The notes under the pieces were generated by a model. That model ran no database searches. It worked only from the letters and a program-made list of their open reading frames with translations, and was not told the origin of the DNA. A DNA stretch of 64,000 bases from an uncultured Clostridium sp. (GTDB lineage: Bacteria > Bacillota > Clostridia > Lachnospirales > Lachnospiraceae). Made by a program: the position numbers and the translations under genes. Within the stretch, counting starts at the first letter, position 1; the number at the start of each line of letters is the position of its first letter. This document shows, piece after piece, positions 1,766 to 20,489 of this stretch. Location: positions 1 to 64,000 of the forward strand of contig CAMNRM010000023.1 of assembly GCA_946553025.1 (NCBI GenBank), in the 5' to 3' direction.

Positions 1766-1847
1766 GTTTTATTCTATATTATGTGACAGGGAAAAGTCAA
1801 GTGCCATAAATTCGTCGGAGAATATGTATTTATTTACACTTTTTGGT

Positions 1848-1876: not shown

Positions 1877-1913
1877 GAAAGATAAACAGGTAAAATGGGG
1901 GTAAACGATAGAT

Positions 1914-3227
1914 ATGAAGCGATTTGCAATGGAAAAATTAGTAAACTGGAAAAACGATGAATACCGACTTCCGCTGATTATCCGCGGTGCCAGGCAGGTG
2001 GGAAAAACCTGGCTGATGAAGGAGTTTGGCAGGCTTTATTTTGAAAAGGTGGCCTATATTAATTTTGATCATAATAAAAGGATGGAGCAGCTTTTTTCCG
2101 GGGATTTTGATGTGGATCGTATGTTAAGCGGTCTTTCTATAGAAAGTGATGTGGAGATTGAACCGGAGAATACATTAATGATATTGGACGAAATTCAGGA
2201 GGTTCCGGCTGCACTGCAAAGCCTTAAATATTTTTGTGAGGATGAGCGGCACAGTTATTTTATTATTGCTGCAGGTTCACTTTTGGGAATTGCAGTGCAT
2301 GAAGGGACATCATTTCCTGTGGGTAAGGTGGACAGTATGGATCTTTATCCTCTGTCATTTTCGGAGTTTTTGGAAGCTACAGGAAATGGCAGGCTGTTAA
2401 AATTGATGCAGAAGCAGGACTATTTGATGATAACAGCATTTAAAGAAAAATACATCGATTTGCTGAAAATGTATTATTATGTGGGAGGAATGCCGGCAGC
2501 GGTGAATGCTTATCTTGCGGATAAAAATTTAAAAAATGTGCGTCATATACAGAAGCGGTTAATTTCCAGCTATGAACAGGATTTTTCTAAACATGCTCCG
2601 CTTTCTTATGTTCCCCGGATTCAAATGGTCTGGGATGGCATTCCTTCTCAGTTGGCGAAGGAAAATAAAAAGTTTATTTACAGTGTACTGCGCGAAGGTG
2701 CCAGGGCCAGGGAATTTGAACTGGCAATTCAGTGGCTTACGGATTGCGGACTGTGTCATAAGGTGGGACGGGTGACCAAGGGGGGAATACCTTTAAAAGC
2801 TTACCGGGATCTTCCTGCGTTTAAGCTTTATCTTGTGGATGTTGGCCTTCTTGCTGCAATGACCGATTTAGATGCCAAAACGCTGTTGATGGGAAATGAT
2901 ATTTTTACCGAATTTAAGGGGGCATTGACGGAGCAATTTGTCTGCCAGGAACTTTTAGCGGAATTAGAAACCGTACCTTATTACTGGTCAGCGTCAAATT
3001 CCAGCGGTGAGGTGGATTTTGTTCTGCAGCATGAGGGAGAAGTGATTCCTCTGGAAGTGAAAGCAGAAGAAAACTTAAATGCCAAAAGTTTAAAGAGTTT
3101 TGTTCAGACATATAAGCTTGCCTGCGGCATCCGTACATCGATGTCGGATTACCGCAGAGAGGAAAAAATGATCAATCTGCCATTGTATATGATTTCGCAG
3201 ATGTGGGAGGTTTGCGGCAGGCATTGA
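1914..3227 (+). CDS. ATP-binding protein, AAA_14 plus DUF4143 (paralogue)
   Basis: A 437-residue relative of the divergent neighbour at 360. Walker A is GARQVGKTWL (about residue 24), Walker B is LMILDEIQE, and AAGSLLGIA follows at the same relative place. The C-terminus has GEVDFVLQ and IPLEVKAE, the D...ExK signature of a PD-(D/E)XK-like domain. The start is the first ATG after GGGGGTAAACG and is supported by the alignment with the paralogue. The two proteins are clearly divergent in sequence, so this is not a recent duplication. A role in defence or genome maintenance is only a guess. Confidence 0.85.
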   Translation: MKRFAMEKLVNWKNDEYRLPLIIRGARQVGKTWLMKEFGRLYFEKVAYINFDHNKRMEQLFSGDFDVDRMLSGLSIESDVEIEPENTLMILDEIQEVPAALQSLKYFCEDERHSYFIIAAGSLLGIAVHEGTSFPVGKVDSMDLYPLSFSEFLEATGNGRLLKLMQKQDYLMITAFKEKYIDLLKMYYYVGGMPAAVNAYLADKNLKNVRHIQKRLISSYEQDFSKHAPLSYVPRIQMVWDGIPSQLAKENKKFIYSVLREGARAREFELAIQWLTDCGLCHKVGRVTKGGIPLKAYRDLPAFKLYLVDVGLLAAMTDLDAKTLLMGNDIFTEFKGALTEQFVCQELLAELETVPYYWSASNSSGEVDFVLQHEGEVIPLEVKAEENLNAKSLKSFVQTYKLACGIRTSMSDYRREEKMINLPLYMISQMWEVCGRH

Positions 3228-3401: not shown

Positions 3402-4067
3402 ATGAAACGGAAACTGCTGATTGTAGAGGATGATTGTCTGCTGGCAGAGGCGGCATGTGATTATTTTACCAGTAAGGGCTGGGAGGCGGAAACAAAAGAA
3501 GACGGGGTGCAGGCCCTGGATGTGCTGCGCGAGAAAAGTTTTCATTTAATTTTGCTGGATGTGATGCTGCCGGGAATGGATGGCTTTGCCCTGTGCCGGG
3601 AAATTCGGAAATCCTGTGATGTTCCGGTGATCTTTATTACGGCCCGCGTTTTGGAAGAGGATGTGTTAAACGGCTATGCTTTAGGCGCGGATGACTATGT
3701 GACGAAGCCTTTTTCTCTTCCTGTATTGTATGCAAAAGCCATGGCATTGACCGGGAGGGTGCAGAAAAGCCCGGCTTTTTTGGAGGTGGGCGGGCTGAAA
3801 GCCGATCTGCACAGCCATAAGGTGATAAGCGGTGAAAAGATTCTTCCTCTGCCGCCGAAGGAATATGCGATGCTGCTGTTTTTTATGCAGAATCCCGGGC
3901 GGGTGTTCAGCCGTGAGCAGCTTCTTATCCGCTTCTGGGGCTGGGATTTTGACGGAAATGAGCGGGTGGTGGACAATCACATTAAAAAACTCAGAAAAGC
4001 TATGGGTCTTTGCGGCTGCTCCATTCAGACCGTGCCAAAATGCGGTTATCGGTTGGAGATACAGTAA
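3402..4067 (+). CDS. OmpR/PhoB-family response regulator
   Basis: A 221-residue two-component response regulator. The receiver domain has the acidic pair EDD near residue 9, the phosphorylation aspartate in LLDVMLPGMDG (about residue 52), and the conserved lysine in VTKPFSLP. The C-terminal winged helix carries KEYAMLLFFMQNPGRVFSREQL and a recognition region ending in VVDNHIKKLRKAMG. It is followed after about 70 bases by a histidine kinase gene, so the two form one signalling pair. The ligand or stress sensed cannot be told from sequence. The neighbouring genes (ATPases, XRE repressors) do not suggest a target. Confidence 0.92.
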   Translation: MKRKLLIVEDDCLLAEAACDYFTSKGWEAETKEDGVQALDVLREKSFHLILLDVMLPGMDGFALCREIRKSCDVPVIFITARVLEEDVLNGYALGADDYVTKPFSLPVLYAKAMALTGRVQKSPAFLEVGGLKADLHSHKVISGEKILPLPPKEYAMLLFFMQNPGRVFSREQLLIRFWGWDFDGNERVVDNHIKKLRKAMGLCGCSIQTVPKCGYRLEIQ

Positions 4068-4136
4068 CGTAAACGATACCTGTCTGTAAGCAAAGGGCAG
4101 GAGGCGCTGTAAATCGTGCACGAAATGGAGGAAATC

Positions 4137-6161
4137 ATGCGAAGAAAAAAGAAGGGTTTTTGGAAACCGATAGCAGCAGGTTTTGCGGTGATGTATCTGG
4201 CAACGATGGGACTGGCGACAGGACTGGTAAAAGAGAGATTTGTTCAGGAGGACGGACTGCGTTTTGAAAGTGCAGCTTCGGCGATTCTTGACCGGGCAGA
4301 TGAAAAAGAATTTTCTATGGAGCAGGAAATGACAGACGAACAGGAAACGGTTCAGGAGCAGGAAATTGCAGGTGAGCAGAAATCGTTTCAGGAACAGGAA
4401 GATTCTGACCGGCAGGAGGATGCATGGAGCAGGGAGAAACGGAAGAGTTTTTATCAGGATTTGGCGAACAATTCTTTTTGGCGGGTGAACAGTGAATATA
4501 TGCAAATTTCCATTGCCGCATATGATGAGCATAAAGATTTGCTGGCAAAAAGCCGGGATGAGATTGGAAGTTATGGGGTCAGTACAACCGGGCGGGAAGA
4601 ATGGTATTTTGCGCTGGATGATTATCTTTCTTCAGAGGAAAAGGAAGTGTTGGCAAAGTATCAGGCGGAGGATATTCAGTATTGTTTACAGGAGCCGGAT
4701 GTTTCGGAAAAATATCGTTTTTCGATTCGGGTTTCGCCGGATTTAAAGGAATTATGGGAGATTTATGTCCAGGAGATTGTCTGGGAGGAGGATAAGGAAG
4801 AGGAGGGAGAAAAAGAAGCGGGAGAAGAATCAGGGGATGAAGAATCGGGGGATGAAGAATCGGACGGGAAAGAAGCCTATATGGACCCGCTGACCGGGGG
4901 ATACCATTTTATGTCCGGCAGGGTCGTAGTTGACTATGCAAGCGGCGAGGAAATGGAGGGTGCGAGAAATTTTCACGAGGTAAGCGGAGAAGTGGTCTGG
5001 AAATGGACTAATCCGAACGTGGATAAGGAAAAGCTGGGGGAAGGGGAAATTGTCCATACAGAGCTTACACTTCCCTACTTAAATCTTTATCAGGCAGGAA
5101 CACTTGCGCAGTGGCAGAGGTGGACAAACAGCAATTATCTTCAGGGGTTTCAGGAACAGGGGGAGTTTGTCTGGGAGGAAGGGATAGAGGTTCCGCCGCT
5201 GATGATTGAAGAGGACGGTATTTGCAGGCGTGGAAAGATGCAGCTTCAGGTGGGAATGATAGGAGAACCCTTTGCCTATCTGGAAATCCGCATGGAAAGC
5301 CGCCCGTGGCTTGCGGCTGTGGATTATATGAAGTATGTATATCTGGCCGGGGCTGTGCTGACGGCGGCCTGTATGCTTGCGGTGATTGGCATGATGAATA
5401 AGGTCTATGCACGGCAGGCAGCGCTGGAGGAAACCCGCCGTGATTTTACCAATGCCATGGCCCATGAACTGAAAACACCGCTCGGGGTTATCCGTAATTT
5501 TGCTGAAAATTTATTGGAACATCATAAGGAGGAGAAGCGGGATTACTACCTCTCGCAGATTATCGGCCAGACGGAGGAGATGGATCGGCTGGTTGGGGAG
5601 ATGATAGAGGTGTCGAAGCTGGATTCGGAAAAACTGGTGCTTGCAAAAGAAGAAGTGTCCTTTCTTGCACTGCTTCAGGAAGAGTTGGGACGTTTTGAAC
5701 CGATGATTGAGGAGAAGAAGATTCAGGTGGAATTTTCTGTTTGGGGAGATAAGGATTTTTTTGTTTGGGGAGATAAGAGGGTTTCTGTTCAGGAAGACAG
5801 GGAATTTTCTGTTCAGAACGAGGATTTTCTGGTGCAGGGGGACAGGGATTACCTGGCAAAAGCCGTGTGGAACCTCCTGGCCAATGCGGTGGATTATAAC
5901 CGGGAGGGCGGGAAGATTTTCATTCAGGTGGATAAGGAACAATGTGTTATCGAGAACAGCGGGGAGGCGATGGGAGAGGAAGCCTTGCTTCACGCCTTTG
6001 ATTTATTTTACACCAGCGATAAGAGCCGGACAGGAAAGGATGGGCACATGGGGATGGGGCTTTATCTGGCAAAGAAGATTTTGGAACTTCATCATTTAAA
6101 GCTGGTATTGAGCAATGTGGAAGGTGGAGTGCGGGTGGCGGTTTGCAGGGAAAGAGGTTAG
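4137..6161 (+). CDS. Membrane sensor histidine kinase with repeat insertions
   Basis: Partner of the upstream response regulator. I prefer the ATG at 4137, preceded by GGAGG, over the GTG at 4116. It gives a basic N-terminus (MRRKKKGFWK) before a transmembrane helix. A long extracytoplasmic part follows, then a second transmembrane helix (about residues 395-415), the phosphoacceptor box HELKTPLG (about 443), the N box (WNLLANAVDYN) and the G box (GMGLYLAKKI). No HAMP domain is evident. The extracellular part has two low-complexity stretches (Q/E-rich near 60-95 and EESGDEESGDEES near 235). Between the dimerisation domain and the N box there is an unusual five-unit degenerate repeat of about eight residues. 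The kinase core motifs are otherwise intact. Confidence 0.88.
   Translation: MRRKKKGFWKPIAAGFAVMYLATMGLATGLVKERFVQEDGLRFESAASAILDRADEKEFSMEQEMTDEQETVQEQEIAGEQKSFQEQEDSDRQEDAWSREKRKSFYQDLANNSFWRVNSEYMQISIAAYDEHKDLLAKSRDEIGSYGVSTTGREEWYFALDDYLSSEEKEVLAKYQAEDIQYCLQEPDVSEKYRFSIRVSPDLKELWEIYVQEIVWEEDKEEEGEKEAGEESGDEESGDEESDGKEAYMDPLTGGYHFMSGRVVVDYASGEEMEGARNFHEVSGEVVWKWTNPNVDKEKLGEGEIVHTELTLPYLNLYQAGTLAQWQRWTNSNYLQGFQEQGEFVWEEGIEVPPLMIEEDGICRRGKMQLQVGMIGEPFAYLEIRMESRPWLAAVDYMKYVYLAGAVLTAACMLAVIGMMNKVYARQAALEETRRDFTNAMAHELKTPLGVIRNFAENLLEHHKEEKRDYYLSQIIGQTEEMDRLVGEMIEVSKLDSEKLVLAKEEVSFLALLQEELGRFEPMIEEKKIQVEFSVWGDKDFFVWGDKRVSVQEDREFSVQNEDFLVQGDRDYLAKAVWNLLANAVDYNREGGKIFIQVDKEQCVIENSGEAMGEEALLHAFDLFYTSDKSRTGKDGHMGMGLYLAKKILELHHLKLVLSNVEGGVRVAVCRERG
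5727..5855 (+). repeat. In-frame degenerate tandem repeat inside the histidine kinase
   Basis: Five units of about 24-27 bases built on GAATTTTCTGTTTGGGGAGA encode FSVWGDK, FFVWGDK, VSVQED, FSVQNED and FLVQGD. They lie just before the N box. A homologue without the insertion would read directly from the strand before FSVWGD into RDYLAKAVWNLL. Unit length stays a multiple of three. Confidence 0.75.
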
Positions 6162-6810: not shown

Positions 6811-7137
6811 TTATGATTTAGAATTTTCCGTCAGGTATTTAATAAAGGAAGAAACGGCGTGCACCTGTTCATCATTTAAGCTGTCAATAGACTCCAGTAC
6901 CTGTTTTTTTGCCAGGGAAATCCCCTGATTGGAGAATATATCGCCCTGACCGTTCTCCAGCCAGTCCTTGTTCACATGAAAGACATTTTCAATAAGAAGA
7001 AGTATACGCTCGGGTGGGTTTACTTTACCTCGTATTATCTTTGAAAAATAACCGGCATCAAGATTGATTTTCATCGCAAACTGACGTTGTGAAAGATTCA
7101 GTTCGTCCAGAAGAATTTGTAGCCTGTCGCAAATCAT
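6811..7137 (-). CDS. XRE-family helix-turn-helix repressor
   Basis: The ORF track starts far upstream, but the ATG at 7137 has GAGGTGAAG just before it and begins the real domain, so the protein is 108 residues. The HTH reads LQILLDELNLSQRQFAMKIN, DAGYFSKIIRGKVNPPERIL, then FHVNKDWLENGQGDIF, typical of phage and ICE repressors. The C-terminus is a short helical tail. It is divergent from a 51-residue small gene at 7271. The shared intergenic region has two consensus-like promoters whose spacers both contain ATAAGCAAT, a likely operator for this protein. Confidence 0.85.
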   Translation of the reverse strand: MICDRLQILLDELNLSQRQFAMKINLDAGYFSKIIRGKVNPPERILLLIENVFHVNKDWLENGQGDIFSNQGISLAKKQVLESIDSLNDEQVHAVSSFIKYLTENSKS

Positions 7138-7158
7138 TATCTTCACCTCACTAGGATA

Positions 7159-7187
7159 AGCATAACAGAAAATATTGCTTATGTCAA
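7159..7187 (-). promoter_or_regulatory. Promoter of the XRE gene at 6811
   Basis: On the minus strand TTGACA (7182-7187), a 17-base spacer and TATGCT (7159-7164). The spacer begins TAAGCAAT, the same half-site found in the divergent promoter, which suggests autoregulation. Confidence 0.65.
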
Positions 7188-7208
7188 TGAAGAATATGGA
7201 AATATCCC

Positions 7209-7237
7209 TTGACAAATTGCTATAAGCAATATAGAAT
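7209..7237 (+). promoter_or_regulatory. Promoter with palindromic operator for the 51-residue gene
   Basis: TTGACA, a 17-base spacer and TAGAAT. The spacer holds the palindrome ATTGCTATAAGCAAT (7216-7230), and a further TATAAGCAA lies just downstream at 7243. Three related half-sites spaced around two divergent promoters resemble a cI/cro-type switch. Confidence 0.65.
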
Positions 7238-7270
7238 ATTGGTATAAGCAACGGAAAGGAGGAAGAACTG

Positions 7271-7426
7271 ATGACTAAAGCACAACAGACCTTAAAAGAA
7301 GATATTGAGCGAATTAATGATGATGCCATAATCGAAAAAGTGAGAATTTTCATTATGGGAATTTTAGCACAGCAGAATATTGCTGAGAACCAGCGCAGGT
7401 CAGTCAAACAGCTTGTGGAAATCTGA
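7271..7426 (+). CDS. Small helical protein under XRE control
   Basis: A 51-residue frame, too short for the ORF track, beginning MTKAQQTLKEDIERINDD. It has a strong GGAAAGGAGG ribosome site and a clear operator-containing promoter upstream, which support it as a real gene. The product is charged and likely helical, with no membrane segment or recognised domain. Its position opposite an XRE repressor is that of the first gene controlled by a phage or ICE switch. Nothing else of such an element follows; a terminator-like hairpin and then a GGDEF-like fragment come next. Function unknown. Confidence 0.6.
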   Translation: MTKAQQTLKEDIERINDDAIIEKVRIFIMGILAQQNIAENQRRSVKQLVEI

Positions 7427-7962: not shown

Positions 7963-8013
7963 AAAACGATTTGATCATTGTTTACCAGAGGGAATGAATT
8001 AAGGAGGAAAAGA

Positions 8014-11000
8014 ATGATTAAGAAGGATAATGTCCAAAATAAAATTGTATTTTGGCGGCGCGGATTGTTGAAAAGAGGTATATCATTTTTGTTGTCAACA
8101 GTATTGGTGATGACAAATATTGGTAATCCGGCGAATCTGGCTTTTGGAGCCAGTGATGTTAAAGAGGAGTTTCGTATACATAAGGATGAAATTTGGCAGG
8201 CTATAGAAAAGGCATGGGAAGAGGGCACGGTCTTTGATGGCGCAGAACTGAAAATTGATGGAAAAGACAGGAATTTAGTAAAAAATTACCAAAAACTTCT
8301 GGAAGAAAATACGGTATTGATGGAAATTCATCCGGAGATGGAAACCGTAAATGATGTAGAAGGAATAGATCTGCGTATATTTGTCTGTTTGGAAGAAGGG
8401 ACAGATTTACAGAATTATGCTTTATCCGGAGAAGAAAAACTTGTTTTTCTGTATGTCAATGAAGGTGAAAAAACCGTATCTGGCAGGATAAATGTAGATG
8501 GTTATGTGACAAACTTTTGTACATTAAAATCCTATGAATATGCATTTGGAGAAAAGGTTTTGCTGGATGATTCCGCAGAGGAGATGGAGGATTTAATTAA
8601 TTCGTCAGAAGATTCCGTTAATGCAGAAGGCTCTGAGCCGGAAGAATCTACGAATTTGGAGGAAACAAAAGAAGGAGCAGAAATTTCGGCAGATTTAGCA
8701 CCGGAACAATCGGATGGGGCAGAGGAAGCGGATAGTTCCTATGAAGATGTCGGTGGAAATCAGGAGAGAAATGACAGAGAAGATGAAATAAGTACTGATT
8801 CTGAAGATAAAACAAGTGAAGAACTGGTTGATGAAGGAGAACAGAAAGAAACTAAAGAAAATAGCGATTCTACCGGGGAAACAGAAAGCGGGGAAGAGCA
8901 GACGAAGGATAATTCCTTAAGAGAGGATGCAGAAGAGAAAACAGAAGATAAAGCTGAAGTAAAAGAAGAACTGGAAGAGAAGGCAGAAGAGAAGCCTGAG
9001 ATAAAAGAAGAAGCAGAAGAGAAGTCTGAGGCGAAAGAAGAAGTAAAAGAGAAGCCTGAGGTGAAAGAAGAACCGAAAGAAAAACCTGAGGTAAAAGAAG
9101 AACCGAAAGAAAAATCAGAAGAGAAGTCTGCACCAAAAGAAGAACAGAAAGAAAAATCAGAAGAGAAGTCTGCACCAAAAGAGGAACCGAAAGAAAAATC
9201 AGAAGAGAAGTCTGCACCAAAAGAAGAACAGAAAGAAAAACCAGAAAGCCATGATGAAGGACAGGAAAAAACTGCCCAGATATCCAGGCATTCTGTTTTA
9301 ATTGCAGCAGCTTCAGCGTCTGATGCTGATAAAGAAGATATTCAAGATCAGGAAGATGTTCAAGAACAGGAAGAAATGATTTCTTTTAACCGTGTTGGCG
9401 TGCTGGAAGGAAGAACCTATGGGCTGGTAGCTATGGGGGACAGCATGAGTGCAAGGGCTTTTGTTGTTTCTATTTCTAAACTGGGAATTGCGTCAGAGGA
9501 AATCGAAGAAAATGACCATCAGATTACCTATACGATTTCTCCGGCAGGAAGTGCTGATTTAATCGGAGCACCGAAATTTGTAAGTGATGAAGCGAAGGTT
9601 AGCTTTGGGGTAAAGCCTTTTAGCGGATATCAGGTGAATCAGATATCTGCAAATGGAATTATACTGGAAACTGCTGTTCAGGAAAATAGTGTTGACGAAG
9701 GAATAATTTATTATGAAATTCCCGAAGTTTTAGAAGATCAGGAAGTCGAAATCGTAATGATAGAGGAAGATGGGATTAATCACCCTCAATTTTTCCAGGA
9801 GAGTACGATTAATGGAGTGACGATTACGATTTCGGCAGAAGAAGGTATACTGCCGGAAGGCACAAGAGCGGTGATAACCGAAGTAACATCTCAGGTTGAA
9901 AACGCAGTAAAGGAAAAGGAAAGGCAGGAAAAAGAAGAGAATCAAAACGGAGAGGAGAATCAAAAAGAAGAGAAGGTCTATTCGGTACTGGCATATGATA
10001 TAAAACTGGTGGATCAGAACGGGATAGAACTGGACGATAGCTGGAGCCGTAATGGTTATGTGGATGTAGCCTTTTCTGGAAGCAGAATTGAGCAAGAGAG
10101 TAAGGAAGCAGATGCAGTAGAGATCAGGCATCTGGATTTGGACAGCGAAATTGGGCAGGAAAAGATTACAGCGGAAGATATTAATGAATTAGAAAAAGTC
10201 GGGGATACCATAGATGTTTCCGGAGATAGGGCTGTGGAAGCAGTAGCATTTAGCGCAGAGCATTTTTCAGTGTATGTGGTGAATTTTACTGTTAAGGCAT
10301 CCGGATATGCAGCCGCAGGAACAGTATTTGTACGGATTAAAGATTCAAACGGCAGGGAGATTGTTTGGACAGAAGATAGTGGGCAGAAAAGTTTTCGATT
10401 TGCAGACGAACTGGGAGAAGTTGAATCGGCTGGGGATTCGCAGTCATTGCTTTTGACAGGGACTACAGGTACTGTAACCGGCATCTATAGTATATCTGCA
10501 GTTATGAGCAAGCTGAATATTGGATCAGAAATCAACGTGGGAGAAACAAGGTATAGGTTTGATTATGCACAGGCAGAAAAGAATTCTGTTCCTACGACCA
10601 TTAGTAATGTTCGCTATTATAAATCGAGTAAGGTTTTGCAGTTTAAGACGCCTACTGCCAATACATGGACGGCATTTAAAATGGAGGACGGAAAAGCCTA
10701 TATTGATTTGATATTTGCTGCGGACAGCAGTCCGAAAATGGTAACATTTAATTTCGTAGATGAAGAAAAGAACGTATTGGCTTCATCAGAGAAAATAGAT
10801 GCACTGCAAAATTATTTTGGGACATCAAGATTTTCAGTACTGCGGAATTATAAAGAAATTGGAGTCCAGGGAATTCAAACGGATTTATCGGAATTAGGTA
10901 TTAATAAGGATAAAAATGACCAGTTAATTAAAATAGGAGAGAAATATTATTGGATTACAGGTGCCAGCGCAAAAGATGCATCGGGTAATGAGAAAACGGT

Positions 11001-14000
11001 AGATAGTATTCGGTACTATTGGAATAATGGAAAGGATGAATTAGAACTCCAATATGTGCCGACTTCAAGCGGAAGCGGATGGAAAGCTTTGTCAGAGAAT
11101 GATGGAGTTTATGAGATTTCCATTCAGTTAAAAGAAGTTACTTTGGATAACTTAAAGGAAAGTGTAAGGTTTAATTTTATTGATGAAAATGGAACGATCT
11201 TAAAAACAGAAACAAAACCTGTTTTCGAGTTTTTTTCCTCCGGAGCGTTTAGCACAACTGGCGTGAATGGTCTGGTAAACAGTAAATTAGGATTAAAGAA
11301 TGATCTTGTACAATTTGGTGAAACGTGGTATTCGGTTCAAAATCTGGAAACAGATACAGGGGCAGAAATTGTCAGTGTACGGTATTATTGGGATGACAGT
11401 TTAGAAAAGCTGGCTTTCTGTTATAAATCATCATCAAGTTCTTCTAAATGGAATGGAATAGCGGTAAAAGATGGGAGTTATGCTATTTCTATAAAATTAA
11501 TCCCATGTGCAAATCCGGTGGTAAAATTCCATATTGTAGATGAAGATGGGAATAATATTCAGGAACCAGTATCTGTGAATGCAATTTCGGAGTTAGTATA
11601 CACAAATAGTGTTAATAACCAGAAAATTACAGAAATATTAAAAAATAAAATACAAGGTTTTGAAATTGGTACATTTACTGCGTCTGACGGAAATGGATAT
11701 GTATTTAAAAATGCAAAAACAGACGATGTAGAAGAATTATCCTATATCGCTTATCATCAAAAAGGAGGAAAGTTTGAACTAAAATACGGTAATAGTTCCA
11801 GTATAAATAGCTGGACAGGATTTGAGAATGTTGGAGAAAAAGTCGATGTATACTGTGAATTTGCCAAAATCAAAGAAAAGGTAATTTTCCATATTGTAGA
11901 CACTAATGGAAATAAGATTGCAGAGGATAAGGAACTTAGTGTTTATCCGGCATTAAAAGGGAGCAATGGTGCGTCACTTCAAAAGTACAGTGATTTGAAC
12001 AATCTTTTAACCTTTAATTATGCGAATAAAGAAAAGAACGCAATAATTGGAGATGACAATAAGGTCTATGCCTATAAAGAAGCGTCGATGAAGGAAATTA
12101 CGGGAAGACTTACCAATATTCGCTATTACCGAAGTTCGGATGGTTATGATTTTAAATTTGGATATAAAATATCTTCTTATAGTTTTAAAGACCTTGTAAA
12201 TGGCCCTTATGAAGTAAATCTGAAGTTTGAAAAACTTGATAGAAATGTCACATTTATCTGCAAATGGGGAGATAAAACGGAGGAGATAGAAAGAGAACTT
12301 ACCCTTCTGCCTGATAAAAAGATGACGATTCAGGAAGCATTGAATGATATGCTGGATACAGATGGGATAGCTGAGAAAGAGGGAAAGAAATATATCCTTA
12401 ATTCTGCTAAAGTGGGGACAAAATCTATTTCAGGGATAGTCAATACCACCAGTACCAGCGGAGTACTGTTCCAATATGTTGTGTCGGGGAAATATAGTGA
12501 TTCTAAATATGATTTTGGAACAGGAAAACCGACAGTAACTTTAGAATTTGTTCCCGCAGAAAAAGTGTATTTTAATCCTGTAGATGAAGAGGGAAATATC
12601 ATCGATGCAGTTGGCTGGAAAGAGCCTTATTGGACTGCAAAAATTCCAGCAGGCGAGTGGGATATTAATTACTATTATCCCAGCATAACAACATTATTGG
12701 AATTTGGTGAAACAATAACAGATACCAAAGGAAGAATTTATCACTATAAGACCAAAGGAACCGTTGCAGCTACAGGGGAAAATATAGGCTCTTTAAAATC
12801 AGAATCGGGAAAATTGTCCTATCGTTCAAGTTATTATGGTGCTCCGTGGAAAGACGTGACGAAAGATACAAATGGCAGATATACCATTAATCTGCATTTT
12901 GCAATAGATGAAAATGCAGAACTGCTCCGTACTTTTGTAGAGGCAGTAGATAAATTGCCTGACCGTATTACAGAAGAGAATATTGACCATTTAACCGATA
13001 TTTCGGTTCAGTTTGATGCCTGTGCAAGCGCATATGAGAAAATGCCAGATGAATGCAGGGAAAAAGAAGAGGCACGGAAAGCTTATAAAAAATACCTGGA
13101 AGTAAGAAAGCAATATCAGGAAGTTTTGGAAGACATGAAGATCCGCACATTTATAAAGGCTGTAGATAAAGTGTCGGAAAGCATTGAACAGGATCTGTCA
13201 GATAGTTTAAAAGAAAAGATTAAGGAAGAGTTTGCTGTTTGTGATAATGCCTATGCACAGCTGACAGCAGAGCAGAAGAATAAGGAGGAAGTTGCAGAAG
13301 CATATAGAACTTATCTTGATGTAAGAACGAAGTATCAGAAAAAGCTGGAAGAAAGCATTATTGAAGCTAAAGTTAAAGTATTTACAGAAGCAGTAGAAAA
13401 GGTAGCTGCCGTTTCCGGTGAAGGTTCTATGTCAAAGGATTTGGAAGAATTATTCAAGTCCTGTGACGAAGCTTATGAGAAGCTTAGCGATGAGCAGAAA
13501 TCAAAAGAGTCTGTAGTGATGGCAAAAGAAACATTGGAAACCATCAAAAAGCAATATTATGCAAGCTTTACTGTTAAAATTAATGTCGGATTAGGGGAAG
13601 ACATTCCCTGTTTTGGATTAGAGGAAGCAATAAAGGAAGTTGATACGTTAAATCCCGAAGAGGGAGAGATTAAAATCACCTTAAAATCCGATATTGATCT
13701 TTTAAATCCAGTACAGATTAAAACAAAAAACGCATTTATTATTGACTTGAATGGAAAAACAATAAATTATCCTTCTGGTATGGAAACTGCATTTCAAATT
13801 GAGGAAAGCACAGTTGTATTTAAAAACGGCAATATAATGATGAATAATTTCATTTCCTCTGAAGGGAAGGACAGCGAAATAAGCAGTGATAGTAAAAACC
13901 GTACATTCGAGGATAAGAGTCTTATTATTGTCAATGGAAATGTCTTATTTGAACAAATGGTAATTGACGGCGGAAAAGAAGAAGGGAGAAGAGTTTTAAC

Positions 14001-15903
14001 CGTCAAAGAAGGAACGGCTGCACTTTCCGGAGGAACAATCATTCAAAACGGAAATATAAGATCTTTCCAACCTATACCGCTGTTAAAGGAAATGTCGGGC
14101 GGAGGTGTTTATGTTGGAGAAAACGGAAATTTGATTGTGTCCAGTGGTGCTGTTATTCAAGATAACCAAGCCTACGCTGGTGGAGGTATTTATGTAGCTC
14201 CAGGAGGAAACGCAGAGATAAACGGAGGGAAAATTACCAATAATATCAGCAATGTAAAAGGAACGACAGGCTCAGATAAAAACTTTGGTGGTTTAGGCGG
14301 CGGTATTTATATTGCAGATGGTGCTGCTGTCAAATTAAACGGAGGTATAGTTGAAGGTAATCAGGCAGGGATGAAGAGTGACAATCAGTATTTGCGTCAG
14401 TGCGGTGCAGGCGGCGGCATTTATATCGAGAAAGATGCAGCATTTATCATGAATAATGGTACAATTATCAGCAATCACGCCTATGCTAACGACAATACTT
14501 ATTATCCGAAAGAGAATCCTGACAGTAAATTTATTTTTTGGACTTCCCGTTTTGGTGGTGGAATTTGTATTCAGGAAGCTTCGGAAAAAATAAGATTGAA
14601 CAGTGGGCGTATTGAAGGAAATGATAGTGCCGGAAAAGGCGGTGGTATTTACATTCATACAGGCGAATTGCATCTGGAGCAAGTGAAGATTGCCGGTAAT
14701 AAGGCAGAGGGTAATGGTGCGGCTGTTGGAAGCGGTATTTGGTATTGTGATGTAGGAGATGGCCGATTCTACGCTACGAGCGGCGGATATATCAGCAATA
14801 ATGCCAGAGTTATAGGTACTGATTTTTATTCAAGGGAACCAGAAACAGAAAAAGATATTCATCTTCCAACTCGGCTTTCTAATGGTACAAATGTTGCATG
14901 GTATGAAGATGATGGGAAGACAGAATTAGCAAAATTGAATAAAATAGATAATCTGGATCAATATCTTAAAGAGCAGAATACGAGTACAATAATGCTTATC
15001 AGCAAGATAGAGGATGATGCAGAAACAGGTTCCTATTCCCTTACCGTCAGCAATAATCAAGCTGTGGATGGCGGTGGTATTGCCTGCAACGGTAGTTTAA
15101 TTATTGGAAGAGATGAAGATATCACGATTAAAGTAAAGAAAATCTGGAAGGATGAAAATGGGAACGATATTACTAAAGATTCCGAGAAACTTCCAGACGC
15201 TATTAAAGTCGATTTATGGCGTCTTGGAAAAGATGGAAAAAGAGAAAAGAAATTAGATGCTGATGTGAAACTAAGCGCCGAAAATCTTTGGAGTTATGAG
15301 TTCAGGGATCTTCCAGCGACATTTGCATATGAAGTGGCAGAGCAGCCCATCGATGGCTGGGAGATGGAAAGGAAAGAAACATCTGGTGAAGATGGCAAAG
15401 AGGTAACGATTATAATTGTAAATAAAGAACAGCCCAAAGAAAGTCCAACCGAACCAGAAACTCCCGAGGAGCCGACTACCCCTGATGAGAGCACTCCGGA
15501 AGAAACAACTCCCGAAGAGAGCAGCCCCGAGGAGAGTACTCCAGAGGAAACAACTCCGCAAGAAACACAGCCTCCTGCACCGGGCAATCCATCTGGCGGC
15601 GGTGGCGGCGGCAGAAGAAGACGGATTACTGAGCCGACTCCGCCCCCGACTGCTGAAGAAACGCCGATCCCACCAGAGGAAGTGCCATTAGTAAGTATCG
15701 AACCGGAAGAAATTCCGCTGGCGATGCTGCCTCCTGATAATTCCAAAGATTTAACCGTTATTGATGATGGAGGAGTACCATTGTTCGGCCTTCCTAGGAC
15801 AGGGGATAAGAGTATACCAACAGGAGCGCTAATCGGGATGATGTTTGTTTCCCTGATGACTGCCTGCGGTATCCATGTAAAGAAACGAAAAGAAAAAGAA
15901 TAA
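8014..15903 (+). CDS. Giant LPXTG-anchored surface protein with beta-helix and Cna-B domain
   Basis: 2,629 residues from the ATG at 8014 behind AAGGAGGAAAAG; the track starts 12 codons early. Order: signal peptide (GISFLLSTVLVMTN); a small N-terminal domain; a long E/K/S-rich stretch (about 190-430) with 14-residue repeats; a ZU5-like region (about 450-760, GVTITISAEEGILPEGT); about seven tandem modules of 105-145 residues (770-1630) with xFxxVDExGN starts and IRYY-type motifs; three helical repeats (1635-1845); a right-handed beta-helix with repeated GGGIY turns (1850-2350); one Cna-B-like domain (KVKKIWKDENGND, about 2370); a P/E/T-rich wall spacer; LPRTG (about 2593) with a hydrophobic helix and KKRKEKE tail. 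It should be cell-wall-anchored by a sortase, which is not in this window. An adhesin or glycan-binding role is inferred. Confidence 0.9.
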   Translation: MIKKDNVQNKIVFWRRGLLKRGISFLLSTVLVMTNIGNPANLAFGASDVKEEFRIHKDEIWQAIEKAWEEGTVFDGAELKIDGKDRNLVKNYQKLLEENTVLMEIHPEMETVNDVEGIDLRIFVCLEEGTDLQNYALSGEEKLVFLYVNEGEKTVSGRINVDGYVTNFCTLKSYEYAFGEKVLLDDSAEEMEDLINSSEDSVNAEGSEPEESTNLEETKEGAEISADLAPEQSDGAEEADSSYEDVGGNQERNDREDEISTDSEDKTSEELVDEGEQKETKENSDSTGETESGEEQTKDNSLREDAEEKTEDKAEVKEELEEKAEEKPEIKEEAEEKSEAKEEVKEKPEVKEEPKEKPEVKEEPKEKSEEKSAPKEEQKEKSEEKSAPKEEPKEKSEEKSAPKEEQKEKPESHDEGQEKTAQISRHSVLIAAASASDADKEDIQDQEDVQEQEEMISFNRVGVLEGRTYGLVAMGDSMSARAFVVSISKLGIASEEIEENDHQITYTISPAGSADLIGAPKFVSDEAKVSFGVKPFSGYQVNQISANGIILETAVQENSVDEGIIYYEIPEVLEDQEVEIVMIEEDGINHPQFFQESTINGVTITISAEEGILPEGTRAVITEVTSQVENAVKEKERQEKEENQNGEENQKEEKVYSVLAYDIKLVDQNGIELDDSWSRNGYVDVAFSGSRIEQESKEADAVEIRHLDLDSEIGQEKITAEDINELEKVGDTIDVSGDRAVEAVAFSAEHFSVYVVNFTVKASGYAAAGTVFVRIKDSNGREIVWTEDSGQKSFRFADELGEVESAGDSQSLLLTGTTGTVTGIYSISAVMSKLNIGSEINVGETRYRFDYAQAEKNSVPTTISNVRYYKSSKVLQFKTPTANTWTAFKMEDGKAYIDLIFAADSSPKMVTFNFVDEEKNVLASSEKIDALQNYFGTSRFSVLRNYKEIGVQGIQTDLSELGINKDKNDQLIKIGEKYYWITGASAKDASGNEKTVDSIRYYWNNGKDELELQYVPTSSGSGWKALSENDGVYEISIQLKEVTLDNLKESVRFNFIDENGTILKTETKPVFEFFSSGAFSTTGVNGLVNSKLGLKNDLVQFGETWYSVQNLETDTGAEIVSVRYYWDDSLEKLAFCYKSSSSSSKWNGIAVKDGSYAISIKLIPCANPVVKFHIVDEDGNNIQEPVSVNAISELVYTNSVNNQKITEILKNKIQGFEIGTFTASDGNGYVFKNAKTDDVEELSYIAYHQKGGKFELKYGNSSSINSWTGFENVGEKVDVYCEFAKIKEKVIFHIVDTNGNKIAEDKELSVYPALKGSNGASLQKYSDLNNLLTFNYANKEKNAIIGDDNKVYAYKEASMKEITGRLTNIRYYRSSDGYDFKFGYKISSYSFKDLVNGPYEVNLKFEKLDRNVTFICKWGDKTEEIERELTLLPDKKMTIQEALNDMLDTDGIAEKEGKKYILNSAKVGTKSISGIVNTTSTSGVLFQYVVSGKYSDSKYDFGTGKPTVTLEFVPAEKVYFNPVDEEGNIIDAVGWKEPYWTAKIPAGEWDINYYYPSITTLLEFGETITDTKGRIYHYKTKGTVAATGENIGSLKSESGKLSYRSSYYGAPWKDVTKDTNGRYTINLHFAIDENAELLRTFVEAVDKLPDRITEENIDHLTDISVQFDACASAYEKMPDECREKEEARKAYKKYLEVRKQYQEVLEDMKIRTFIKAVDKVSESIEQDLSDSLKEKIKEEFAVCDNAYAQLTAEQKNKEEVAEAYRTYLDVRTKYQKKLEESIIEAKVKVFTEAVEKVAAVSGEGSMSKDLEELFKSCDEAYEKLSDEQKSKESVVMAKETLETIKKQYYASFTVKINVGLGEDIPCFGLEEAIKEVDTLNPEEGEIKITLKSDIDLLNPVQIKTKNAFIIDLNGKTINYPSGMETAFQIEESTVVFKNGNIMMNNFISSEGKDSEISSDSKNRTFEDKSLIIVNGNVLFEQMVIDGGKEEGRRVLTVKEGTAALSGGTIIQNGNIRSFQPIPLLKEMSGGGVYVGENGNLIVSSGAVIQDNQAYAGGGIYVAPGGNAEINGGKITNNISNVKGTTGSDKNFGGLGGGIYIADGAAVKLNGGIVEGNQAGMKSDNQYLRQCGAGGGIYIEKDAAFIMNNGTIISNHAYANDNTYYPKENPDSKFIFWTSRFGGGICIQEASEKIRLNSGRIEGNDSAGKGGGIYIHTGELHLEQVKIAGNKAEGNGAAVGSGIWYCDVGDGRFYATSGGYISNNARVIGTDFYSREPETEKDIHLPTRLSNGTNVAWYEDDGKTELAKLNKIDNLDQYLKEQNTSTIMLISKIEDDAETGSYSLTVSNNQAVDGGGIACNGSLIIGRDEDITIKVKKIWKDENGNDITKDSEKLPDAIKVDLWRLGKDGKREKKLDADVKLSAENLWSYEFRDLPATFAYEVAEQPIDGWEMERKETSGEDGKEVTIIIVNKEQPKESPTEPETPEEPTTPDESTPEETTPEESSPEESTPEETTPQETQPPAPGNPSGGGGGGRRRRITEPTPPPTAEETPIPPEEVPLVSIEPEEIPLAMLPPDNSKDLTVIDDGGVPLFGLPRTGDKSIPTGALIGMMFVSLMTACGIHVKKRKEKE
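9088..9240 (+). repeat. 42-bp in-frame tandem repeats encoding a K/E-rich stalk
   Basis: Three nearly identical 42-base units encode KEEPKEKSEEKSAP with P/Q alternation at position four. They are preceded by shorter, more degenerate EEKPEVKEE-type units from about 8930. The near identity points to recent copy-number change within the surface protein gene. Confidence 0.8.
10321..12905 (+). repeat. Tandem array of about seven unrecognised protein modules
   Basis: At protein level, modules begin near 10321, 10735, 11161, 11515, 11880, 12241 and 12560. Each starts with a strand such as VRFNFIDENG or VIFHIVDTNG. Most carry a YY/IRYY-type motif two-thirds through and end in a strand like YEVNLKFEK. 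Spacing is 105-145 residues. The DNA itself is not conserved, so the duplications are old. I do not recognise the module. Confidence 0.6.
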
Positions 15904-16090: not shown

Positions 16091-16981
16091 CTATTTCTTT
16101 TCCCTGTACTCCTTCGGCGTACACCCCAAAATTTCCTTAAATTTTCGGATAAAGTAGCTGAAATTTTCAAATCCGCAGTCCATCGCGATTTCCAGGACGG
16201 GCTGGGAGGTGTTGGTCAGGAGGAAGGAGGCGCGTTTTATCCGGTACTGGATCAGGTACTGGATGGGCGTGATTCCTGCGATGGTTTTAAAAAAGCGGCA
16301 GAGGTACTGCGGGTTGCAGGGGATGGTGTCGGCAATCTGCTGCAGGGAAATCGGTTCGCTGTAGTGTTCTTCGATATAGGAAACAATGGTTTTGTAGCGG
16401 TTGATTTTTAACATCTCGGCGGCGGGCAGGGAAGTATTGGGAAGAAGGAGGTTATTTTCGGATACATAGGCAAAAAGTTCAAGCAGGAGGAGTTTGCACC
16501 GGATGTACCAGCCCTCCTGTTTTTTTATGCCCAGGGCCAGGAGCTGTTCTAAAAGGGCGCAGATTTTTTCATAGCCAAAGCCCTCCGGGTGCAGGATGTG
16601 AGGGAGGAGCAGACTGTGGTTTAAAAAGGGGCGAATCCATCCCTCCTGCCATTCGTCCGGGTACGAAAAGTCCAGGATGTGGGGATCGAAAATAAAAACA
16701 TCATGAACGGTGTTTGGGCTCTGACCGATAAGCTGGTGGAGTTCGCCGCTGTTAAAAATGCAGAGATCACCCGCATAAATACTGTGATTTTCCAGGTTAA
16801 GTTCAAGGGAAAAAGCGCCTTTTCGGATAAAGAGGATTTCAATATTGGAATGCCAGTGGCGTTGGACGAAGAAGTTTTCCGGGCTGTTTGTCCCCGAACC
16901 GCTGATAAAGCGCATGGCAGTGATGGGCTTTTGTTTTGTTCCATGGGTGATGATTTCACGTAAATCGGCGTCTACGGGCAT
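16091..16981 (-). CDS. AraC-family regulator of the GH31 gene
   Basis: A 296-residue regulator. The N-terminus is a cupin-like sensing domain (VQRHWHSNIEILFIRKGAFSL, then YAGDLCIFNSGELHQL). The C-terminal 100 residues are two AraC helix-turn-helix motifs (ISLQQIADTIPCNPQYLCRFFKTIAG and VLEIAMDCGFENFSYFIRKFKEILG, closing with TPKEYR). It is divergent from the GH31 glucosidase gene at 17224, with about 240 bases between them, so it most likely activates that gene in response to an alpha-glucoside. The start MPVDADL is the first ATG and fits the family length. The inducer is inferred from the neighbour only. Confidence 0.9.
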   Translation of the reverse strand: MPVDADLREIITHGTKQKPITAMRFISGSGTNSPENFFVQRHWHSNIEILFIRKGAFSLELNLENHSIYAGDLCIFNSGELHQLIGQSPNTVHDVFIFDPHILDFSYPDEWQEGWIRPFLNHSLLLPHILHPEGFGYEKICALLEQLLALGIKKQEGWYIRCKLLLLELFAYVSENNLLLPNTSLPAAEMLKINRYKTIVSYIEEHYSEPISLQQIADTIPCNPQYLCRFFKTIAGITPIQYLIQYRIKRASFLLTNTSQPVLEIAMDCGFENFSYFIRKFKEILGCTPKEYREKK

Positions 16982-17046
16982 AGAAGGGCCTCCTGGTGTT
17001 TGGTATTGGTGGAGTACAGGGGTTAAAAGTCAATATTGTGTTATTT

Positions 17047-17075
17047 ATTATAAAGAATACTGCAAGATTTTTCAA
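17047..17075 (-). promoter_or_regulatory. Promoter of the AraC gene at 16091
   Basis: On the minus strand TTGAAA, a 17-base spacer and a perfect TATAAT, about 65 bases before the start codon. Confidence 0.6.
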
Positions 17076-17087
17076 GTCTTGGGGGAT

Positions 17088-17144
17088 AAAATAAAAGACA
17101 GTAAAATAAAAGACAGGATTGACATCCGGAGATTAACATCCGGA
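17088..17144. promoter_or_regulatory. Direct repeats upstream of the GH31 gene
   Basis: Two copies of AAAATAAAAGACAG are followed by two copies of ACATCCGGA at a 14-base period (17122 and 17136). Paired direct repeats are what AraC proteins bind, but this genome also makes many short tandem duplications, so the regulatory reading is tentative. Confidence 0.4.
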
Positions 17145-17223
17145 AAAAACAGAGAAAGTAAAAGGCAGAATTAATGCCTTGTAAAAATACCCTGACAAAA
17201 AAGGAAAAACAGGAGGACTTCAT

Positions 17224-19257
17224 ATGATTCAAAAATATCGATTTGGGACGCCGTTTGCAACGGAGGCTGTGGTTGAGGAGATTCAGGTTTCGCAGGGAAA
17301 GCCCGTTTACGGGACAGTTTCCCTGGAAGAAGGGTTTTTATTCTCTTATTCGATGCAGGAGGGCGATATCGTCTATGGACTTGGGGAGGCAAACCGGGGA
17401 ATCAATAAGCGGGGTTACTGCTATATCAGCGATTGTGCCGACGACCCCAACCATACCGAAGATAAGCTCTCGCTTTACGGGGCGCATAATTTTATCCTGG
17501 TATCGGGAAGGGAAACGTTTGGACTTTTTGTGGATTATCCGGGAAAGCTGACCTTTGATATCGGTTATAACCGCTCGGATCTGCTGACCATTTCCTGTGT
17601 GCGGGCGGATTTGGATCTCTATGTGCTGGAGGGAGATGGCCCGGCGGATATCGTTAAGCAGTTTAGGAAAATCATCGGGAGAAGTTATATCCCGCCGAAG
17701 TTTGCCTTAGGCTTTGGACAGAGCCGGTGGGGGTATAAGACGAAGGAGGATTTTGTCCGGGTGGCAGAAAACTACCGTAAAAATCACCTTCCCATCGATA
17801 TGATTTATATGGATATTGATTACATGGAGGAATATAAGGACTTTACGGTTAATCAGGAGGAGTTTGGCGATTTTTCTGCATTTGTTGAAGAGATGAAGGA
17901 GAAAAACATCCGCCTGGTGCCGATTATCGATGCCGGGGTGAAGATTGAAGAGGGGTATCCGGTTTATGAAGAGGGGATTGCACAGGGGTATTTTTGCGTC
18001 AGGGAAGATAAAACGCCGTTTACTGCGGCAGTGTGGCCCGGCTATACCCATTTCCCGGATGTCTTAAACCCGAAGGCCAGGGCATGGTTTGGGGAGAAGT
18101 ACCGTTTTCTGACCGATATGGGGATCGAGGGATTCTGGAACGATATGAATGAACCGGCGATTTTCTATACCCCGGAGGGCATTGAGGAAGCCAAGGGCCT
18201 GATGAAAACCTTTTTAGCCGACCAGGAAACGGATGCCCGGTGGGATACCACCTTAGGGGAGAAGGTTACGTTTTTACAGCTTCGCGGACAATTAGAGGAA
18301 TTATCCAACCGCAAAAAGGACTATGAACAGTTTTATCATCAGGTGGATGGGAAGCTCATTCGCCACGACCAGGTACATAATCTCTTCGGCTACAATATGA
18401 CCCGCGCCGCTGGGAAGGGCTTTGAAATGATTGACCCGGAGAAAAGATTTTTAATGTTTTCCCGTTCCTCCTATATCGGGATGCACCGCTACGGCGGTAT
18501 CTGGATGGGCGATAATAAATCCTGGTGGTCGCACATTCTTTTGAATTTAAAGATGCTGCCGTCGCTGAATATGTGCGGCTTCCTCTACACCGGCGCGGAT
18601 CTGGGCGGTTTTGGGGCGAATACGACCAGGGATCTTTTGCTGCGGTGGCTGGCGCTTGGCGTGTTTACTCCGCTGATGCGCAATCATGCCGCCATTGGCA
18701 CAAGGGAACAGGAGTGTTATCAGTTTGGGAACATGGATGATTTCCGTCACATCCTTGGCGTGCGCTATCGGTTGATTCCCTATCTGTACAGCGAGCTGAT
18801 GAAGGCGGCGCTGGAAGATGAACTGTATTTTAAGCCGCTGGCCTTCGACTACCCGGAAGATAAGATGGCTGCTCAGGTGGAGGATCAGCTTCTTTTGGGC
18901 AATGAATGTATGATTGCCCCCATCTATACGCAAAATGCCGCAGGCCGCTATGTCTACCTGCCGGAGCGGATGAAGTTTATCAAGTTCCTGCCGGACGGGA
19001 CGATGTTTGAGGAGGTTTTGGAAAAGGGCCATCACTATGTAGAGATTGCCTTAAATGAAGTTCCTCTCTTTATCCGCGAAGGAAAATGCATCCCTGTGGC
19101 GGATGCTGCCGAATGTGTAGAAGCGCTGGATATGGGGACGATAAAACTGCTTGGATTTGCGGGCGCGTCTTATCGGATGTATGATGACGACGGGGTGCAT
19201 AAGGATTATGAAAATCCGGGGAATTGGAAAATATTGGAAATAAGTGATAATATTTAG
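17224..19257 (+). CDS. Alpha-glucosidase, glycoside hydrolase family 31
   Basis: A 677-residue cytoplasmic enzyme with no signal peptide. The catalytic barrel has YMDIDYME (about residue 197), the nucleophile motif FWNDMNEP (about 303), the acid/base region IWMGDNKSWW, and YTGADLGGF downstream. This is the standard GH31 layout for hydrolysis of terminal alpha-glucosidic bonds. It has an N-terminal beta-sandwich (YGLGEANRGINKRG) and a short C-terminal one, and its length is normal for bacterial GH31. The start follows AAACAGGAGGACTTCAT. It sits divergent from an AraC regulator. The exact linkage cleaved cannot be read from sequence; a 6-phosphate substrate is not suggested by any PTS gene nearby. 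Its 3' end is echoed downstream in degenerate repeats. Confidence 0.92.
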   Translation: MIQKYRFGTPFATEAVVEEIQVSQGKPVYGTVSLEEGFLFSYSMQEGDIVYGLGEANRGINKRGYCYISDCADDPNHTEDKLSLYGAHNFILVSGRETFGLFVDYPGKLTFDIGYNRSDLLTISCVRADLDLYVLEGDGPADIVKQFRKIIGRSYIPPKFALGFGQSRWGYKTKEDFVRVAENYRKNHLPIDMIYMDIDYMEEYKDFTVNQEEFGDFSAFVEEMKEKNIRLVPIIDAGVKIEEGYPVYEEGIAQGYFCVREDKTPFTAAVWPGYTHFPDVLNPKARAWFGEKYRFLTDMGIEGFWNDMNEPAIFYTPEGIEEAKGLMKTFLADQETDARWDTTLGEKVTFLQLRGQLEELSNRKKDYEQFYHQVDGKLIRHDQVHNLFGYNMTRAAGKGFEMIDPEKRFLMFSRSSYIGMHRYGGIWMGDNKSWWSHILLNLKMLPSLNMCGFLYTGADLGGFGANTTRDLLLRWLALGVFTPLMRNHAAIGTREQECYQFGNMDDFRHILGVRYRLIPYLYSELMKAALEDELYFKPLAFDYPEDKMAAQVEDQLLLGNECMIAPIYTQNAAGRYVYLPERMKFIKFLPDGTMFEEVLEKGHHYVEIALNEVPLFIREGKCIPVADAAECVEALDMGTIKLLGFAGASYRMYDDDGVHKDYENPGNWKILEISDNI

Positions 19258-19330
19258 AAATAAGTGAAAATATTAGAAATAAGTGAAAAGCGTTAGAGAT
19301 TATGGAAGCATTAGAAATTGTGGAAGCATC
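19231..19330 (+). repeat. 3'-end echo repeats after the GH31 gene
   Basis: GAAATAAGTGATAATATTTA, covering the last codons and stop of the GH31 gene, is followed by two degenerate copies (GAAATAAGTGAAAATATTA and GAAATAAGTGAAAAGCGTTA). A different pair with GGAAGCATTAG-like units comes next. No gene or clear signal is seen in this stretch. Confidence 0.65.
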
Positions 19331-19375
19331 AGGGATAATCAAAACGTCTTAGAAAAAGAAATCATAAAAGGAAAT

Positions 19376-19419
19376 AGAGAATGTCAGGTGGATGATTCCT
19401 GTGCATTCTCTGTTTTTTT
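19376..19419 (+). terminator. Strong terminator after the GH31 gene
   Basis: AGAGAATG pairs with CATTCTCT, with an inner CAGG/CCTG stem, followed by GTTTTTTTG. It lies between the convergent GH31 gene and the 59-residue gene. Confidence 0.8.
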
Positions 19420-19444
19420 GTCCTTTTTATTCTATTTCTGTTCT

Positions 19445-19624
19445 TTATTCATTTCCGGTCAGCGGCGGTTTCTGGTAGAGTTTGCGGTTAATCTCATTTT
19501 TTACCACATTAATCTCTTCCTGAACTGCCTGTAGGTCACCTTTTTGCACCTGGCGCTCGATACGTTCAACGAGAGTTAGCTGGTCAAATAAGTTATTGTT
19601 GATTTCTTTTTCATTCGTTAGCAT
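19445..19624 (-). CDS. Small protein translationally coupled to an AraC regulator
   Basis: A 59-residue frame from the ATG at 19624, preceded on the minus strand by AAAGGAGGAAAACT. It overlaps the end of the AraC gene by 14 bases, so the two are probably translationally coupled. The ORF track starts further upstream inside the regulator. The product (MLTNEKEINNNLFDQLTLVE, then a helical Q/E-rich part) is charged and predicted helical, with no membrane segment. I do not recognise it. The coding support is the strong ribosome site and the overlap; a small protein partner of the regulator is possible but unproven. Confidence 0.55.
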   Translation of the reverse strand: MLTNEKEINNNLFDQLTLVERIERQVQKGDLQAVQEEINVVKNEINRKLYQKPPLTGNE

Positions 19625-20489
19625 AGTTTTCCTCCTTTCGCAAAACCGCCGAAATATTTCTCTTCCTCCATTCCATCGGCGGCTGTTGATAGATGGTTTT
19701 AAATGCCCTGGTAAAATGAAAGGGATTGGCATAGCCGGTCAGGTGGGCAATCTGGGTAATGGAGAGCTTCGTGGATCGTAGAAGTTCGCAGGCTTTATTC
19801 ATCCGGTATTGGATAAGGAAGTCCTGAGGACTTTTTGTCGTGATTTTTTTAAAGAGTTTGCTGAAATAACTTCGGTTTAAGTTTACATTGGCAGCCAAAT
19901 CCTCAACGGAGATTTCATCCATATAGTGTTTTTCGATATAGTCTACGGTGGACTGGATATAAAAGTCCTGAATACTGTTTTTCACGGTCTTTTTTGCGGT
20001 AATCGAACTGCGGATCAGTGCGCCGAAAAATAAGCTGACATAGCCCATCACTTCACAGGGCAGGAGTTCGGGCTGGTCAATGATGGTTTTTAAATAATTA
20101 AAGCAGGTTTTATACCCTTCTTCGGAAGACGGGCGGTAAATGGGGGAGTCCTGGCTCAGACCTGCCTGGTTTAAATACTCCTTCGCCTTCATCCCGTCAA
20201 ATTCCAGCCACATATATTCCCAGGGATGTTCTCCGTCTGCGTCGTAGTGGATGAGTTTATTCGGCTCAATTAGAAATGCCTGGCCCGCGTGAAGCTGGTA
20301 GGCGGCATCATTGCCGTTAAAGCTGGTGCGGTAGGTTCCGGTGCCGGAGAGTACGCAGTGAAGCAGGAAATGGTTCCTCATCCCCGGCCCGAAGGTGTGG
20401 TAGGGGGCGCATTGTTCGCGTCCGTATTGGTAGAGGGTCAGATCAAAGTAGTCATTATTGAAGAAAAGGTAATTAATCATCTTATTCAC
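19611..20489 (-). CDS. AraC-family regulator of the alpha-galactoside genes
   Basis: A 292-residue regulator. The N-terminal cupin-type arm reads MRNHFLLHCVLSGTGTY and HAGQAFLIEPNKLIHYDADG. The C-terminal DNA-binding domain reads ISVEDLAANVNLNRSYFSKLFKKIT and SITQIAHLTGYANPFHFTRAFKTIY. This MsmR/RafR-like layout is usual for regulators of raffinose or melibiose genes. It is divergent from a sugar-binding lipoprotein gene followed by a GH36 alpha-galactosidase, which fits that role. The start is supported by its own promoter about 100 bases upstream. The inducer is inferred from the neighbours. Confidence 0.9.
   Translation of the reverse strand: MNKMINYLFFNNDYFDLTLYQYGREQCAPYHTFGPGMRNHFLLHCVLSGTGTYRTSFNGNDAAYQLHAGQAFLIEPNKLIHYDADGEHPWEYMWLEFDGMKAKEYLNQAGLSQDSPIYRPSSEEGYKTCFNYLKTIIDQPELLPCEVMGYVSLFFGALIRSSITAKKTVKNSIQDFYIQSTVDYIEKHYMDEISVEDLAANVNLNRSYFSKLFKKITTKSPQDFLIQYRMNKACELLRSTKLSITQIAHLTGYANPFHFTRAFKTIYQQPPMEWRKRNISAVLRKEENYANE

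Follow-up and report, generated by a model that had tools for sequence, protein, structure and literature searches.

A sevenfold array of an uncatalogued, probably MucBP-like module in an LPXTG-anchored surface protein of an uncultured Clostridium sp.

MUB repeats, such as Mub-R5 and Mub-RV of Limosilactobacillus reuteri and the MubR repeat of YwfG, are tandem beta-grasp modules carried on LPXTG proteins. In YwfG, sugar was bound by the lectin domain, whereas the MUB repeat bound none of the tested monosaccharides (PMC9815576). For the beta-grasp module of Staphylococcus aureus SraP, no immunoglobulin binding was shown and a place in a rigid stem was proposed (PMC4047093), while Mub-R5, of similar fold, is cited in PMC4047093 as a binder of immunoglobulins. 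In the Periscope class, an LPXTG protein carries folded domains in tandem that form a stalk of variable length, as exemplified by the near-identical alpha/beta SHIRT repeats of Sgo_0707 (PMC8201768). The present study concerns a 64,000-nucleotide stretch of DNA (hereafter the window) from an uncultured Clostridium sp. of the Lachnospiraceae, in which a large surface protein carries an array of repeats that is best read as a diverged MucBP-like domain expanded to seven copies, uncatalogued yet not isolated.

The surface protein and its seven-unit array

The protein comprises 2,629 residues in a frame open from position 7978, and its likely start is an ATG preceded by a good ribosome-binding site. 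Its features are as follows.

8014 to 15903, + strand: coding sequence of the LPXTG-anchored surface protein (AAGGAGG at 8001-8007, ATG at 8014)
9385 to 10287, + strand: conserved N-terminal module, ending in an ...AEHFSVYVV motif (tblastn matches; alignable by eye)
10315 to 10728, + strand: unit U1, with a longer beta1-beta2 insertion (leave-one-out HMM 26.2 bits, 0/1000 shuffles)
10735 to 11145, + strand: unit U2 (48.0 bits, 0/1000 shuffles; sub-threshold MucBP on the first strand)
11155 to 11514, + strand: unit U3 (53.3 bits, 0/1000 shuffles; AlphaFold model pLDDT 80, pTM 0.74)
11515 to 11868, + strand: unit U4 (40.9 bits, 0/1000 shuffles)
11872 to 12234, + strand: unit U5 (33.3 bits, 0/1000 shuffles; AlphaFold model pLDDT 77, pTM 0.72)
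12238 to 12558, + strand: unit U6, degenerate or doubtful, lacking the IRYY motif (7.7 bits, reached by 3/2000 shuffles)
12556 to 12912, + strand: unit U7 (18.1 bits, 0/1000 shuffles)
12910 to 13572, + strand: three helical repeats of about 72 residues each (no Pfam match over cut-off)
13585 to 15117, + strand: probable right-handed beta-helix with GGGIYI repeats (Chlam_PMP 21.1 bits, cut-off 20.6; homologous stretch in a protein of genome G206)
15127 to 15387, + strand: Cna_B domain (Pfam PF05738, 38.5 bits, E 1.6e-9)
15691 to 15894, + strand: doubled LPXTG anchor, with LPRTG at 15790-15804, a membrane segment and a basic tail (NF033073 56 bits, TIGR01167)

The array occupies the region between the N-terminal module, from whose end U1 is separated by about 10 residues, and the three helical repeats. 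Six of its seven units are clearly homologous, at 118-138 residues each, and the range across all seven, U6 included, is about 105-138 residues. The unit borders listed above have been slightly refined. Most unit pairs were already connected by phmmer. When each of the six units was withheld from the profile in turn, it scored 18.1-53.3 bits, compared with 8.2-11.6 bits for the best of 1,000 shuffles per unit. U6 was scored with the six-unit HMM and is classed as degenerate or doubtful because of its low score, the shuffles that equalled it, the missing IRYY motif and its non-recovery by the six-unit profile in a genome-wide search. The earlier note had proposed a seven-fold array at 10321-12905 with low DNA identity between units, displayed on a sortase-anchored protein with a beta-helix; six of the seven units are borne out, each beating all 1,000 shuffles, and the divergence holds too, with protein identity between units of about 13-35%, no tandem repeat inside the array at the DNA level according to Tandem Repeats Finder, and a longest direct DNA repeat of 40 nt at 65-78% identity. 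The array (10312-12918) has a G+C content of 36% against 46% for the window, with U4 and U5 near 32%.

The proposed mode of display was likewise upheld, as NF033073 and TIGR01167 both scored over cut-off at the C-terminus and a signal-like N-terminus was read by eye. Both the repeats and the anchor are thus established for this protein. The beta-helix is likely, given its GGGIY-type repeats and the single Chlam_PMP match just over cut-off. The helical repeats, situated between the array and the beta-helix, follow the pattern TFxxAVxK ... CDxAYxxLsxEqkxKexv. A tblastn search revealed that many of the large surface proteins in the genus share the N-terminal module, and other proteins of the genus carry the N-terminal module, the beta-helix or the anchor too, but with different modules in the middle. 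In the low-complexity N-terminal region, Glu/Lys-rich tandem repeats were detected at 8918-9246 (periods of 24-42 nt, up to 94% matches); unlike the array, these are alike at the DNA level and could allow length variation.

Just upstream of the surface protein, a two-component system (response regulator and histidine kinase) and an HTH regulator are encoded at 3402-6161 and 6811-7407, and two adjacent, divergent AAA_14/DUF4143 ATPase genes lie at 360-3227. The downstream genes at 16091-24512 encode an AraC regulator, GH31, a solute-binding protein and a GH36 alpha-galactosidase, probably a cluster for alpha-galactoside use. Elsewhere in the same genome, two true MucBP domains were identified in another LPXTG-type protein (G000:C84:15463-16005; L045, L050), whose locus also contains a sortase-like gene in the same orientation. 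Moreover, two large surface proteins on separate contigs (C37 and C63; L111 and L112) have near-identical N-terminal parts, and two similar long surface proteins lie on short contigs (C105 and C106; L102 and L103), these pairs reflecting either adhesin gene duplication or an assembly interrupted at repeats.

Single-copy relatives ahead of vWA domains

A near miss of the profile search in genome G723 revealed a unit-like stretch immediately behind the conserved N-terminal module and ahead of a vWA domain. A layout search and reading of the regions uncovered similar stretches in G026, G081, G088 and G015, and G200 has one as well, so that six large surface proteins of other genomes each harbor one copy in the order N-terminal module, copy, vWA. 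All six single-copy domains scored above all 300 shuffles with the six-unit HMM. In hhalign, the six-unit profile matched the six single-copy domains at 91.8-95.7% over about 100 columns (93.7% with a separate profile-comparison tool), against 0.1-0.3% for the units compared with four control repeat families of the same genomes (CnaB-, DUF11-, MBG- and InlB-like).

Because the single-copy members had partly been chosen by eye, the test was repeated by location alone: for 14 proteins that possess the N-terminal module, the 160 residues following it were scored against 500 shuffles. The same six stood out (at most 1/500 shuffles as high), and all six run on into vWA, the vWA domains of L037 and L105 being identified by eye; the remaining eight were near background, one of them (L030) with a vWA domain. 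In a joint alignment of units and single copies, one Asp in the first strand is invariant, and Y-x-F-xx-A, IRY, F-x-Y, W and the last strand are common to both. Judged by these profile comparisons, homology between the array module and the single-copy domain ahead of vWA is demonstrated here. No database family was found for the single-copy domain.

Neither a second array nor a close homologue was found in about 1,000 genomes, phages, plasmids, viral contigs and genome contigs, which, given the limited sensitivity of such searches for a sequence so diverged, is an absence at that sensitivity. The unit-HMM samples comprised 200 and 387 genomes of the family, 11 of the genus and 399 of the phylum, and tblastn covered 397 family genomes, the family samples overlapping. 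Furthermore, a 12-row profile run class-wide (124 genomes, very few of this family) matched solely the window's own protein. Array candidates in G192 and G014 were rejected as a Big2-type protein and a housekeeping gene, and one on G201:C219 as unrelated. Most near misses read from the profile search were chance matches, including histidine kinases, a pilin-type protein and a choline-binding-like protein with a MucBP-like stretch. As a query, one single-copy domain was too weak in tblastn.

Affinity to MucBP and the predicted fold

Whether queried with individual units, with consensus sequences or with the complete protein, Pfam, NCBIfam and PHROG contained nothing that matched the array over cut-off; no unit passed any Pfam cut-off, including those of Cna_B, Big, InlB/Flg_new, SHIRT and other surface repeats, and no MUB-type Pfam match was obtained for the units. 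A PDB sequence search gave no significant match for the module, and a literature search found no paper on it. For Pfam MucBP (PF06458), the best unit score was 13.9 bits, for U2 on its first strand, with a cut-off of 23, and the other units gave none. Two of the single-copy relatives, L104 and L101, came just under this cut-off at 21.8 and 20.8 bits (E 3e-4 and 7e-4, respectively). The array profile matched a small MucBP set at 28%, spanning the first 25 columns only.

AlphaFold models of U3 (from seven sequences) and U5 (from six) both combine two strands and one or two short helices with another six or seven strands, exceed the minimal beta-grasp by two or three strands, and look beta-grasp-like; an alignment of tandem pairs was of no use for folding. 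Foldseek returned no significant match for either model (best E 0.14 and 0.29, respectively). The sensible matches of U3, none of them significant, were PB1, ubiquitin-like, SHIRT and Eap domains, all beta-grasp folds other than MucBP. For U5, six MucBP/MUB proteins, namely 2kyw, YwfG (7yl4-7yl6), 3i57, 3lyy, 2kt7 and 3q69, ranked in the top 36 of 350,542 chains, again without significance (best probability 0.60 and no E below 0.29; TM 0.16 for the MUB structure 3i57), and the same top 36 also included UBL domains, staphylokinase and streptokinase. Since few MucBP-type sequences are detectable by profile in the PDB, this concentration is unlikely to be chance, yet the matches represent one fold and are not independent. 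A MucBP-like beta-grasp fold is therefore likely for the units, as predicted from sequence and models.

The earlier note had described the units as a new beta-rich repeat domain that it could not match to MucBP, Big, Cna-B or SdrD-type repeats, and had suggested a profile and fold check of single units against known repeat families. That check gave no clear match and the module is indeed absent from Pfam and NCBIfam; however, it is not private to this protein, given the single copies before vWA in related proteins, and although no unit reaches a cut-off, the first strand, the single-copy relatives and the predicted fold lean to a MucBP/MUB-type beta-grasp.

Stalk or binding array, and comparison with known modules

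The explanation considered somewhat probable is that a diverged MucBP-like beta-grasp module, normally present singly, was multiplied to seven copies within the outer portion of an anchored adhesin, where it would serve probably as a stalk and possibly in adhesion. Each unit would comprise a MucBP-like core (a VxFxxVDExGNxI strand, a second strand and a short helix) and a C-terminal antiparallel extension with Y-x-F-xx-A ... IRY ... F-x-Y ... W ... Y-x-I-x-L-x-F. Whereas the single copy in the relatives would join the N-terminal module to vWA, in the array protein it may have been duplicated several times with vWA absent. After secretion, sortase would attach the protein through its C-terminal LPRTG, leaving the beta-helix, helical repeats, array and N-terminal module pointing outwards in that order. 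With very short linkers between them, the copies would most probably form an extended, fairly stiff rod that keeps the N-terminal module off the wall. Both the rod shape and the stalk function are inferred here, and the recurring R and Y of IRYY, which may be exposed, would suit a binding site as well.

A multivalent adhesin is a tentative alternative, in which each unit would weakly bind a mucin glycan, an immunoglobulin or another surface ligand, and the low identity would reflect different specificities or antigenic drift. At the level of the predicted fold, the units resemble MUB/MucBP domains, some of which bind mucin or immunoglobulins (PMC9815576; PMC4047093), and their aromatic residues recur, with IRY present in the single-copy relatives too. 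The stalk is nevertheless favored over the adhesive array because the SraP and YwfG beta-grasp modules showed none of the binding tested and the single copies sit linker-like between two other domains, Mub-R5 being the contrary precedent. It is rather doubtful that the units constitute a new family that has an extended beta-grasp fold of its own and a candidate conserved binding face (IRYY and W), with the array acting as a putative receptor that binds mucus glycans or immunoglobulins multivalently. A fold that is new and has no relation to MucBP or beta-grasp, confined to this array and the single copies before vWA, appears improbable: it would be consistent with the lack of significant sequence or fold matches and with the strands beyond the minimal beta-grasp, but the highest-ranking U5 matches are rich in MucBP/MUB and other beta-grasp structures, and this, like the near-cut-off MucBP scores of the L104 and L101 copies, argues against it. 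Finally, a Periscope-type stalk with unit number altered by recombination between repeats, suggested by an LPXTG protein bearing folded domains in tandem, is very improbable, as repeats of that class need to be closely alike in their DNA (Sgo_0707: 82-100% protein identity; PMC8201768) and the array has no tandem repeat at the DNA level.

With the diverged MucBP-like stalk as the preferred reading, the present study adds an uncatalogued module that recurs in giant surface proteins of the family and is loosely tied to mucus-binding domains. Since it occurs in several proteins, a profile could be built with which many "hypothetical" stretches could be annotated. Should the units prove to bind mucus or antibodies, the protein would become a candidate colonization factor; should they form a stalk, they would represent one more way of displaying a head domain.

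In comparison with known systems, the units share with MucBP the first strand V-x-F-x-x-V-D-E-x-G-N-x-I, but MucBP spans 63 positions whereas the units have 107-138 residues with the added IRY...W...YxIxLxF extension. MUB repeats, of beta-grasp fold, are likewise tandem modules on LPXTG proteins, but of about 175-185 residues in two subdomains, in contrast to the single core of the units, and without a sequence match. The SHIRT domain is a weak fold match of U3, but the near-identical Periscope repeats differ from array units of 13-35% identity. The SraP module, likened by predicted fold and not by sequence, belongs to a rod-like segment of an anchored adhesin, as is proposed for the array, but is single and lies behind a lectin. 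The domain before vWA agrees with the array units in its full-length profile match, its place after the N-terminal module and its conserved motif; there, one copy is followed by vWA, whereas the array protein has seven copies and no vWA (Pfam search of the 2,641-residue frame), and continues into helical repeats and a beta-helix.
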